41,363 bases of DNA from a virus: positions 1 through 41,363 of IMG/VR virus record IMGVR_UViG_3300009163_000072; one strand, 5' to 3'. Both the position numbers and the translations under genes were made by a program. Below the pieces are notes generated by a model, which was given only the letters and a program-made list of their open reading frames with translations, ran no database searches and was not told the origin of the DNA. Positions 22,794 through 40,777 of the stretch are shown here, one piece after another. How positions within the stretch are numbered: the stretch's first letter is position 1; each line of letters opens with the position of its first letter.

Positions 22794-22877
22794 GGAGTAG
22801 AGGCCGACAAAAACATAAAATCATTAGCCCTGTTGAATAGGTGAGTCCTCTACCTCCCTGTTCTTCGGGGCATTTTT
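22794..22877 (+). promoter_or_regulatory. Structured leader RNA with attenuator-like terminator
   Basis: GGAGTAGAGG (22794-22803) pairs with CCTCTA-C-CTCC (22847-22857) in ten base pairs with one bulged C. The enclosed 43 nt include a small hairpin near CCCTGTTGAATAGG. Then CCCTG (22856-22860), TTCTT and CGGGG (22866-22870) form a second hairpin followed by TTTTT (22873-22877), a terminator-like stop. Two C residues (22856-22857) are needed by both stems, so they exclude each other in part, as in attenuators or riboswitches. The next gene starts at 22892. No known class is recognised. Confidence 0.55.
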
Positions 22878-22891
22878 ATCTCAAAAATATT

Positions 22892-23413
22892 ATGAATACA
22901 CTTAAGGTTTTTAGAGCCATAGGTAAACACGAATTACTCATTTTTAACGAAGAGAGTCAAGTATATGTTCCAAATGGAAGGTTATGTTTTACAGATAAAG
23001 AAGTTGATGAAATCATTGAAACATTAATAAGAACAAAAGAATTTTATTTGAAGTATAAAAAATCTATAGAACAGCACGAACAAGAAATGAAAAAAGAAGC
23101 TGATAGAGAATTAGATATTGCTACTTACAACTTAATGAACAAAAAGAAAAAAAGTAGAACTACTAATTTATATGTAATGATAGACCATCATACTGGTCAT
23201 TATAAAATTGGAAGAAGTGATAGCCCTACAAAAAGAGAAGCTACTTTACTTAGTCAAAAATCATCAATAGAACTATTATTTTTTTTCCCAGGAACAACAA
23301 ATCAAGAGAAGATGTTACATGAAATTTTCAAAGATAAATGGGTTAGAGGTGAATGGTTTGATTTAACAAATAACGATTTAATGTTATTAAAAAAAATAGG
23401 AGGTTTGTTATGA
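22892..23413 (+). CDS. T5orf172/MUG113-type GIY-YIG-like protein, 173 aa
   Basis: The start is placed at the ATG at 22892 (MNTLKVFRAIGKHELLIF); a GTG at 22841 would lie within the leader. Residues 1-85 are charged and helical (EHEQEMKKEADRELDIATYN). Residues 95-165 show LYVMIDHHTGHYKIGRSDSP, then TKREATLLSQK, GTTNQEKMLHEIF and WVRGEWFDLT, matching the T5orf172/MUG113 branch of the GIY-YIG fold (tyrosine in YVM and YKIG, arginine in KRE, glutamate in EKMLHEIF). These are nuclease-like modules in phage and host proteins; whether this one cuts is unknown. It overlaps the next gene by 4 nt. Confidence 0.75.
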   Translation: MNTLKVFRAIGKHELLIFNEESQVYVPNGRLCFTDKEVDEIIETLIRTKEFYLKYKKSIEQHEQEMKKEADRELDIATYNLMNKKKKSRTTNLYVMIDHHTGHYKIGRSDSPTKREATLLSQKSSIELLFFFPGTTNQEKMLHEIFKDKWVRGEWFDLTNNDLMLLKKIGGLL

Positions 23414-35759: not shown

Positions 35760-35767
35760 TATATTTG
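35760..35767 (+). promoter_or_regulatory. Promoter of the small-protein/ribozyme operon
   Basis: TATATTTG on the plus strand. A TTTG at 35742-35745 is closer (14 nt) than usual. It is the only good -7 element between 34.9 and 36.1 kb on this strand, and the next terminator is at 40744, so it should drive about 5 kb of small genes with a long leader. Confidence 0.5.
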
Positions 35768-35813
35768 GAATGACGTTTACAATGGTTGTAGGTTTGCTCC
35801 ATCATTCAACGGA

Positions 35814-36056: not shown

Positions 36057-36118
36057 TGAAACGCTTGGAGAGACCTGCTCGTGAGAGAGGTTGTAGGGTT
36101 CGAGTCCCTACGTTTCGC
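36057..36118 (+). ncRNA. 61-nt tRNA-like element without D and anticodon arms
   Basis: A 7-bp acceptor-like stem TGAAACG/CGTTTCG (36057-36063, 36111-36117), with one U-G end pair, stacks directly on a perfect T arm: TAGGG, loop TTCGAGT, CCCTA (36094-36110). In place of D and anticodon arms there is one hairpin ACCT-G-CTC, GTGA, GAG-AGGT (36073-36091). Base 36118 would be the discriminator. The acceptor/T minihelix is what RNase P and RNase Z recognise, so it is a likely processing signal. Cutting after 36118 would leave 22 nt before the ATG at 36141. It is not a decoding tRNA. Confidence 0.6.
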
Positions 36119-36140
36119 TAACCAATAAATACACACAACT

Positions 36141-36329
36141 ATGTTTACTAGAACAATCAACGCACAAGACCTTGCCTCTGAATTAGCTTCCTTACACCTT
36201 GAGAGAGAGTATAAAGAGAAGATGCAAATTTGGGAGGAGGACGGTAAGTATTACACCGAGGAGGCTAACGAACTATTCCACATACTTTACATGGACTATT
36301 TCAATGAAATAGAAAAAAAGGTAGTGTAA
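36141..36329 (+). CDS. Small acidic protein, 62 aa (paralogue of 39093-39293)
   Basis: Starts MFTRTINAQDLASELASLHL, then EREYKEKMQIWEEDGKYYTE and EANELFHILYMDYFNEIEKK. The 66-aa protein at 39093-39293 repeats the same layout (ELASELASxHxER, QIWEE, YTEEAxxxFxxLYxxY), so they arose by duplication. First full gene after the tRNA-like element; its stop TAA (36327-36329) touches the first hammerhead. No family is recognised; acidic and helical. Confidence 0.65.
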   Translation: MFTRTINAQDLASELASLHLEREYKEKMQIWEEDGKYYTEEANELFHILYMDYFNEIEKKVV

Positions 36330-36381
36330 GGTTTACTGAAGAGAGTTGAGTACTCGAAACGGGGTTCGCCCCGTCTAAACC
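36330..36381 (+). ncRNA. Hammerhead ribozyme 1 (type I)
   Basis: Stem I GGTTTA/TAAACC (36330-36335, 36376-36381), core CTGAAGA (36336-36342), stem II GAGT-TGAGT-ACTC (36343-36355), GAAA (36356-36359), stem III CGGGG-TTCG-CCCCG (36360-36373), then TC. All conserved hammerhead bases are present, with A at the free position 7. The cleavage site is predicted after C36375 in GUC. Stem I is the open stem, so it is type I. It begins one base after the stop of the 62-aa gene, and the next ATG is 23 nt past the cut. Confidence 0.9.
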
Positions 36382-36398
36382 AATTAATAATTAATGCC

Positions 36399-36689
36399 AT
36401 GAGCAAAAATGAAATGCATGACGGAATTGAGAACTTCATCAACTATTACACCTCTGATGAAGAGACAGCAGTAAGGATGTTTGAAACCCTTAAGGACTAC
36501 ATGGACGAGGTGTACCAAGAGCCACAAGAGGTTATGGTCTTCACCTTCGATGTACGAAAGGGACAGGATATCTTTTGGAAGAAGGCTGTGGGAGATATGT
36601 CTCCGACAAGCGAGTACATTCCTATCGAAGAGCTACACCTTTGGGTGAATAAGTACAGGAACTTCGGATGGGAGGTAAAAGTTAACTGA
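36399..36689 (+). CDS. Acidic small protein, 96 aa
   Basis: Starts MSKNEMHDGIENFINYYTSD, continues ETAVRMFETLKDYMDEVYQE and FTFDVRKGQDIFWKKAVGDM. Acidic, with many aromatic residues and a C-terminal LHLWVNKYRNFGWEVKVN. It lies between hammerheads 1 and 2; the TGA stop (36687-36689) is part of the second hammerhead core. No family is recognised. Confidence 0.6.
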   Translation: MSKNEMHDGIENFINYYTSDEETAVRMFETLKDYMDEVYQEPQEVMVFTFDVRKGQDIFWKKAVGDMSPTSEYIPIEELHLWVNKYRNFGWEVKVN

Positions 36690-36733
36690 TGAGTCTTAAT
36701 GAGACGAAACACGGGTTCGCCCGTGTCTTAACT
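36680..36733 (+). ncRNA. Hammerhead ribozyme 2 (type I), core includes a stop codon
   Basis: Stem I AGTTAA/TTAACT (36680-36685, 36728-36733), core CTGATGA (36686-36692), stem II GTCT-TAATG-AGAC (36693-36705), GAAA (36706-36709), stem III CACGGG-TTCG-CCCGTG (36710-36725), TC. Cleavage is predicted after C36727. The stop UGA of the upstream gene is bases 2-4 of the core, and stem I overlaps the last codons. The next ATG is 24 nt past the cut. Confidence 0.92.
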
Positions 36734-36751
36734 AATAAATATTTTAAACAC

Positions 36752-37117
36752 ATGGAAAACATGAACGTATTTCAATTGAACATCGGGTTAAACAATAACC
36801 CTTACTCTTTCGAACTAATTACACGGGCCTTGGTTGCCGCATTCGAGGGTGAAATAGTCGCTACACGAGAAGACCTCGGGGAGTACATTACTTCGACAGA
36901 ACCGACCTTGGTAGCTAAGATTATAACCCAAATGGACGAGGAGAGTGCCAGAATTTTAACAGGAGCCATGTGCCTTAAGTTCACACAGGGGTGTATTGGA
37001 ATGAAGTTCAACGAGGAGGGAAAGCTAGTGTACAACCCCGACTTCAAAGGGGAGCAGTACATGTTCAACCCTACGTACTTCATAGAGTTCGATGCTCGAC
37101 TAGAGTCTATATTGTAA
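36752..37117 (+). CDS. Acidic small protein, 121 aa
   Basis: The start is placed at 36752 (MENMNVFQLNIGLNNNPYSF). A longer frame from 36689 would translate the whole ribozyme and is rejected; the ATG at 36752 follows the AAACAC leader usual here. Contents: ELITRALVAAFEGEIVATRE, TSTEPTLVAKIITQMDEESA and a C-terminal FNPTYFIEFDARLESIL. Its stop is 2 nt before stem I of hammerhead 3. Acidic; no recognised family. Confidence 0.65.
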   Translation: MENMNVFQLNIGLNNNPYSFELITRALVAAFEGEIVATREDLGEYITSTEPTLVAKIITQMDEESARILTGAMCLKFTQGCIGMKFNEEGKLVYNPDFKGEQYMFNPTYFIEFDARLESIL

Positions 37118-37119
37118 CA

Positions 37120-37177
37120 GGTTAACTGATGAGGGTTCAATACCCGAAACACAGGACTTCGGTCTTGTGTCTTAACC
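37120..37177 (+). ncRNA. Hammerhead ribozyme 3 (type I)
   Basis: Stem I GGTTAA/TTAACC (37120-37125, 37172-37177), core CTGATGA (37126-37132), stem II GGGT-TCAAT-ACCC (37133-37145), GAAA (37146-37149), stem III CACAGGAC-TTCG-GTCTTGTG with one G-U pair (37150-37169), TC. Cleavage is predicted after C37171. It starts 2 nt after a stop codon, and the next ATG (37192) is 20 nt past the cut. Confidence 0.92.
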
Positions 37178-37191
37178 AAATCTAATAACAC

Positions 37192-37473
37192 ATGGAACGT
37201 ATTACTAAATTACAGAAACAGATTGCCGATGCACACATTAAGGCAAATCGAGAGGGTTCATTCACTAATCCCGTGGTAAATTCAAAAGAGGAATTGTACA
37301 TGGCTCTTCGCAACGGGGAAACATTCGAACACGTGTACGATGAAATTGCTTTCCGTTACGCCTCGGTGACTAGCTTAATGATGGCGAGTGTTTTAGGCCA
37401 TGATAGTAAGGCTTACACACAGGCTGTGTACAAAGGATTCAAAAATGTACTTAATTCAATCGATGTAAAATGA
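37192..37473 (+). CDS. Small protein, 93 aa
   Basis: Starts MERITKLQKQIADAHIKANR, then NSKEELYMALRNGETFEHVY and RYASVTSLMMASVLGHDSKA. It is helical, less acidic than its neighbours, and follows hammerhead 3. It overlaps the next gene by 4 nt. No family is recognised. Confidence 0.6.
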   Translation: MERITKLQKQIADAHIKANREGSFTNPVVNSKEELYMALRNGETFEHVYDEIAFRYASVTSLMMASVLGHDSKAYTQAVYKGFKNVLNSIDVK

Positions 37474-39092: not shown

Positions 39093-39293
39093 ATGAACAC
39101 ACACGAAATAACAATCAACGCTGTTGAACTTGCATCTGAACTTGCATCAGCACACATTGAGCGAGTACACTATGACCGAATACAAATTTGGGAAGAGTCG
39201 GAAGAGGGGGAAAGATACACCGAGGAGGCACAAGATATCTTCAATGACCTTTACGATGAGTACTACACGCTAATCGAATCAACTAAAATCTAA
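39093..39293 (+). CDS. Small acidic protein, 66 aa (paralogue of 36141-36329)
   Basis: The start is placed at 39093 (MNTHEITINAVELASELASA), followed by HIERVHYDRIQIWEESEEGE, RYTEEAQDIFNDLYDEYYTL. It repeats the layout of the 62-aa gene at 36141-36329. It lies 14 nt after the previous stop and 4 nt before the next gene. No family is recognised. Confidence 0.6.
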   Translation: MNTHEITINAVELASELASAHIERVHYDRIQIWEESEEGERYTEEAQDIFNDLYDEYYTLIESTKI

Positions 39294-40715: not shown

Positions 40716-40743
40716 TTCGTGGTGTTTATTGGTTAACGAAAGA

Positions 40744-40777
40744 GGGAGTAGGCTTAATTGCTTATTCCCTTTTTTTA
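40744..40777 (+). terminator. Strong intrinsic terminator of the ribozyme operon
   Basis: GGGAGTAGGC (40744-40753) pairs with GCTTATTCCC (40760-40769) in ten bp with two G-U pairs around TTAATT, followed by TTTTTTTT. It closes the plus-strand operon that begins near 35760 and precedes a new promoter. Confidence 0.9.

Follow-up and report, generated by a model that had tools for sequence, protein, structure and literature searches.

A compact class of type I hammerheads at phage gene junctions and its likely role in punctuating a long transcript

Clusters of hammerhead ribozymes in phage genomes have been described before. In prophages, Perreault et al. (2011; PMC3088659) found several hammerheads placed around single genes or short blocks of genes, with a triple array in Agrobacterium and Pseudomonas phage PaP3 among their examples. 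The clustered phage hammerheads cleaved both in vitro and in E. coli, and the authors proposed that they process transcripts into mRNAs of one gene each. De la Pena et al. (2017; PMC6155905) described such motifs as flanking small ORFs of unknown function and regarded their role as open. The idea of clustered phage hammerheads flanking genes is thus not new, having been reported in 2011. The window analysed here, the whole stretch of 41,363 bases of viral DNA, shows the same kind of clustering, with several hammerheads lying close together around single genes or short blocks of a phage genome. An earlier note on this DNA had regarded a set of hammerheads placed one per gene junction in an operon as unusual. 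That view needs correction, since multiple gene-flanking hammerheads had already been reported (PMC3088659) and the observation was restated later (PMC6155905), and since only three of the ∼12 junctions of the transcription unit in the window carry a hammerhead.

The three elements, HH1, HH2 and HH3, all lie on the + strand, where they alternate with four ORFs to which no function was assigned. HH1 (36330–36381, predicted cut after 36375) is made up of GGTTTA, CTGAAGA, GAGT-TGAGT-ACTC, GAA, ACGGGG-TTCG-CCCCGT and C^TAAACC, where the caret marks the cut, and its 5′ edge directly abuts the TAA stop of a 62-residue ORF (36141–36329). HH2 (36680–36733, predicted cut after 36727) is made up of AGTTAA, CTGATGA, GTCT-TAATG-AGAC, GAA, ACACGGG-TTCG-CCCGTGT and C^TTAACT, and its CTGATGA core contains the TGA stop (36687–36689) of the 96-residue ORF (36399–36689) that lies between HH1 and HH2. 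HH3 (37120–37177, predicted cut after 37171) is made up of GGTTAA, CTGATGA, GGGT-TCAAT-ACCC, GAA, ACACAGGAC-TTCG-GTCTTGTGT and C^TTAACC. It starts 2 nt past the TAA stop of the 121-residue ORF (36752–37117) that separates it from HH2; this ORF has a weak match to phrog_11722, and its gene family is the largest found flanking this hammerhead class. A 93-residue ORF (37192–37473) follows HH3, and the next ATG lies 14–18 nt 3′ of each of the three hammerheads. Elsewhere in the window, the small gene at 39093–39293 is a paralogue of that at 36141–36329 (52% identity), of which only the latter has a hammerhead after it, and 22841–23413 holds a MUG113/T5orf172 (GIY-YIG type) nuclease-like gene.

The earlier note had placed three type I hammerheads with these cuts at these positions, between consecutive phage cistrons. 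All three are present with their parts in the right order, the cut positions are correct by motif, the ORF layout on the + strand is right, and the reading as type I hammerheads between consecutive cistrons is well supported. The note gave stem III 5, 6 and 8 bp; including the A15.1–U16.1 pair raises these lengths to 6, 7 and 9 bp. Each element has the CUGANGA ... GAA A core and the N-U-H cut site of a type I hammerhead in the correct order, together with three helices, of which stem I is open to the flanks. A strict scan of both strands of the 41,363 bases gave exactly three matches, namely HH1, HH2 and HH3, where dinucleotide shuffles predict 0.03 per window. For each element the minimum free energy and centroid folds are exactly the hammerhead fold, with z-scores of −2.0, −2.9 and −3.3, respectively. 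The covariance model R1 scores them at 67.5, 65.6 and 63.7 bits, values that provide no independent test since all three are also in its training set. As judged from sequence, HH1–HH3 are real and conserved, and very probably catalytic.

The earlier note had also proposed a search with hammerhead models. At the curated cut-offs of Rfam 15, nothing was reported for the window; with relaxed settings, each of the three elements scored best against RAGATH-1-hammerhead (RF03152), at 25.9–28.9 bits where the cut-off is 56.3. Membership of RF03152 is ruled out by these scores, and HH1–HH3 lack clear counterparts of its conserved extra 5′ hairpin and UAUAAAAU stretch. Hammerhead_1 (RF00163) resembles the present class in its core and in its open stem I. 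Its best scores on relatives of the window elements are 29–32 bits (top 31.9), all below the cut-off of 34 bits, which is a library threshold and not a chemical criterion; in the window it scores HH2 alone, with 16.9 bits. A curated RNA library therefore misses a common class of phage ribozyme.

The three elements belong to a compact and widespread class of type I hammerheads at phage gene junctions, in which a 6-bp stem I is flanked by A and AA, a 4-bp stem II is closed by a U-N-A-N-U loop, and stem III is variable. A pattern in which the inner stem I and the core were fixed and the other parts left free found at least 120 stretches in IMG/VR, against 10 for a pattern with a scrambled core. 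Among the 138 distinct matches listed, the two outer stem I pairs, which the pattern leaves unfixed, form in 133, and four or more stem II pairs, likewise unfixed, form in 104. A collection-wide double-change test, in which a motif was counted as complete when stems II and III were both present, settles the pairing of stem I: among the matches listed, 100 of 138 motifs were complete for TTAA/TTAA and 28 of 49 for the compensated TTTA/TAAA (128 in total with an intact stem I), whereas none of 18 was complete with stem I broken (TTTA/TTAA) and none of 7 with the core scrambled. This comparison of four patterns is free of the selection bias that affects our alignment of 82 members, which were picked by stem scanning and whose pairing percentages are for that reason biased high. 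In the alignment, 99.9% of stem cells pair, both partners have changed in 13 of the 16 pairs, and compensatory cells number 314, compared with 77 in shuffles; when the partners are slid by 1–3 columns, pairing falls to 26–40%. The earlier note had argued from covariation among the three copies. Taken alone these are weak evidence, but the covariation holds in the 82 relatives and in the collection-wide test.

Short G+C-rich hairpins between genes could also be non-catalytic structures such as terminators or attenuators, or could resemble hammerheads by chance. This is very improbable and is already largely refuted: the unpaired letters of the core are nearly all invariant in the 82 members, complete motifs are absent from the scrambled-core control, and no T run follows the elements. 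In addition, at least one R1 match lies nearby in 33 of 64 loci having a homologue of the gene at 36752–37117, and R1 found no match in 35 control viral loci (336 kb). The shuffles, the core scrambling and the stem I mismatch controls rule out both chance and simple hairpins. In bacterial and archaeal contigs the pattern found 84 stretches, of which only nine loci score with R1, and several of these are probably phage contigs within metagenome-assembled genomes (MAGs). Arrays of two to eight hammerheads were seen on contigs assigned to MAGs of different phyla (L160, in an Aliivibrio MAG, L139, L178 and L184); these, too, are probably phage contigs.

Stem III varies greatly among class members and is often strong, with UUCG caps. 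In L003 (4920–4992), L210, L213, L221, L258 and L270 it is replaced by a conserved three-way junction (GGA-UUAAAUG-hairpin-AGCC-hairpin-GGU-UCC), which was found in only these six contigs in IMG/VR and could be an aptamer-like or protein-binding insert. A TTTA/TAAA subgroup (L329, L338–L342, L358, L367 and L375–L391) has a common stem III whose UUCCCCC-like loop is conserved.

Outside the helices, stems I and II covary most strongly at two positions, the last base of loop II and the base that follows stem I (T-A 130, G-A 16, A-T 13, A-A 2). The first base of loop II and the base before stem I are T-A in 158 cases and A-T in two. The signal is one of covariation only. It is compatible with loop II touching the end of stem I, the arrangement of natural fast hammerheads, although an extension of the stems would also account for the A-T cases. 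The A before stem I is not kept merely as the end of a stop codon, since it is an A in 59 of the 64 elements where the stop lies further inside.

The placement of the class relative to genes was calculated for 148 hammerheads, with ORFs defined as 40 or more codons. An ORF ends near the 5′ edge of 122 of them, an ATG lies downstream of 131, at a median distance of 23 nt from the cut, and both features are found for 111, compared with 290 of 2960 random positions on the same strand and seven of 148 on the antisense strand. Full records contain up to nine copies (on a 51 kb contig; seven on one of 83 kb), and a 5.8 kb contig in a MAG has eight; in arrays, which have 3–9 copies, neighbouring hammerheads mostly have one to three genes between them. 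The 273 flanking proteins group into 201 families, few of which have a Pfam or PHROG match, and a common gene function is thereby ruled out as the link.

The ends of the upstream ORFs cluster at 0/+1, at +6 (TAA in stem I) or at +10 (TGA in the core), and in 83 of the 122 hammerheads with an upstream ORF the stop codon ends inside the element, mostly at +6 or +10. Such an overlap might indicate a translation-sensing switch, in which terminating ribosomes block folding and cutting occurs mainly when the upstream gene is untranslated. We consider this quite improbable, as many elements, HH1 and HH3 among them, have the stop just before them, and as GGTTAACTGA gives stops in two frames, so that the peaks may only mark the first end of an open frame.

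The terminase and portal proteins of the window phage point to Flavobacterium elemo and Cellulophaga phages, and its host is therefore likely to be a member of the Bacteroidota; at the DNA level, no similarity of the window to any INPHARED phage was found. Hammerheads are kept at the window junctions in contigs L001 (the same), L002 and L003. L002 has all three, with changes in the N of the core, the cut base and the loop, and there HH1 is preceded by a different gene and HH2 followed by an additional one. L003 retains HH2 alone, with a rebuilt stem III. Among cultured phages, Cellulophaga phi18:3 and phi19:3 and Flavobacterium elemoA and elemoB each have one R1 match. That of elemoB lies, like HH3, just 3′ of a homologue of the gene at 36752–37117, 69 nt from its stop, and precedes an unrelated gene; the gene downstream of HH3 was sought after the elemo hammerhead and was not found there. 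In elemoF (NC_055853, 16042–16104) stem II is mismatched and an antisense hypothetical CDS is annotated over the element. This hammerhead is likely, from its sequence, to be decaying and, as its stem II is broken, is dispensable in that phage.

These comparisons bear on whether the elements are selfish or passive cassettes, carried along by modular small phage genes, that cut without advantage to the phage, the stop codons in their 5′ edge rendering any junction a safe landing place. The large number of flanking families, the changed gene neighbours in L002, the near-identical copies within each of L079 and L080 and the apparent decay in elemoF are all compatible with such an origin. Against it, strand and position are strict, the same junction is conserved in L003 at 73% protein identity, the putative docking bases covary, and no linked mobility gene was seen. 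On balance we regard passive cassettes as unlikely.

Upstream of the array, a Bacteroidota-type promoter-like site, TTTG-N21-TAGGTTTG (35764–35796, + strand), is conserved in relatives and, going by its sequence, is probably where the array transcript starts. No further promoter-like site was seen between 36141 and 37700, among the array genes, and a hairpin with a T run (40738–40775, + strand), resembling an intrinsic terminator, may mark the transcript end. Taken together, these signals suggest that a single transcript of ∼5 kb carries the array. Terminators between the array genes were ruled out: the one candidate is a weak hairpin (36785–36801) inside an ORF, and terminator-like sites are no commoner in the window than in shuffles. 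Just 5′ of the first gene lies a tRNA-like structure (36057–36124, + strand), which has an acceptor and a T arm and no D arm. It shows compensatory changes between the window and L002, L003, L209, L210, L213, L215 and L279, and is found ∼20 nt 5′ of the first array gene even where the first genes of relatives differ; the leader that follows it (CTAACCAATAAATA) is similar to that after the hammerheads. In L217, a full tRNA-Thr lies ahead of a gene in a similar place.

We propose, with a probability of roughly 80%, that HH1–HH3 are self-cleaving type I hammerheads that punctuate a long phage transcript. Their anatomy, covariation and placement are read from the sequence, and from these we infer cleavage in the cell and its benefit. 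RNA polymerase would start near 35,800 and transcribe the tRNA-like element and ∼12 small genes. Each hammerhead would fold as it emerges, with its loop II docked against the stem I end, and would cut itself co-transcriptionally just 3′ of GUC, past the stop of the preceding gene and ahead of the start of the following one. The upstream mRNA would retain its whole ORF and stop and gain a folded 3′ end with a 2′,3′-cyclic phosphate, whilst the downstream mRNA would begin with a 5′-OH and an A/T-rich leader of ∼20–24 nt for which a Shine-Dalgarno sequence is not needed. The predicted outcome is a set of one- to few-gene units whose stability and translation are uncoupled. A ribosome terminating at the stops in stem I or the core would unfold the ribozyme, so that cutting may occur only in part or under some conditions. 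Besides the motif, covariation and placement statistics, the persistence of hammerheads at these junctions in L002 and L003 while their neighbours change, the promoter-like site upstream of the array with none inside it, and the published activity of clustered phage hammerheads favour punctuation; the many junctions of the same operon without a hammerhead, the broken element of elemoF, and the Rfam scores below cut-off, speak against it.

The ribozymes could also be active with the 3′ end as their key product, stem II, stem III and the cyclic phosphate shielding the upstream mRNA from 3′ exonucleases and the separate downstream mRNA being merely incidental. The variable but often strong, UUCG-capped stem III would suit such a role, as would the three-way junction and the UUCCCCC loop found in some lineages. 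The distance to the downstream ATG is, however, equally tight, and we think it somewhat doubtful that protection of the 3′ end is the main function. A wider form of the punctuation proposal is that phages in general dice their early operons with stop-bearing hammerheads and tRNA-like elements, some three-way junctions perhaps sensing a ligand or protein. This extension is tentative; if true, the resulting mRNAs would each carry one to a few genes behind a short leader of standard form.

Compared with the hammerheads in the main text of Perreault et al. (2011), those described here are compact and of type I, with a 6-bp stem I, A and AA flanks and a U-N-A-N-U loop; their placement between stop and start is fixed, and their arrays reach nine copies. 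The PaP3 element also sits after a stop codon, and scores 32.5 bits with R1. A literature search, covering mainly the main texts of freely available papers, found no paper on the compact class, the stop/start rule or these phages, and the theta ribozyme paper does not mention hammerheads or intergenic arrays. What appears to be new is the class itself, its stop/start placement, the docking covariation, the tRNA-like companions and the cultured phages in which to test them. The class offers a clear rule of position, with stop, ribozyme, short leader and start in that order, together with a model for searches. It also offers phages in culture (phi18:3, phi19:3 and the elemo phages), each holding a single natural copy, that allow cleavage and its consequences to be measured for a group of ribozymes whose role has been called open (PMC6155905). 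A further parallel is tRNA punctuation, in which, as here, a folded RNA between genes sets the cuts, and the tRNA-like element ahead of the first gene adds to the likeness. The two differ in that tRNA punctuation uses RNase P and RNase Z, whereas hammerheads require no enzyme.
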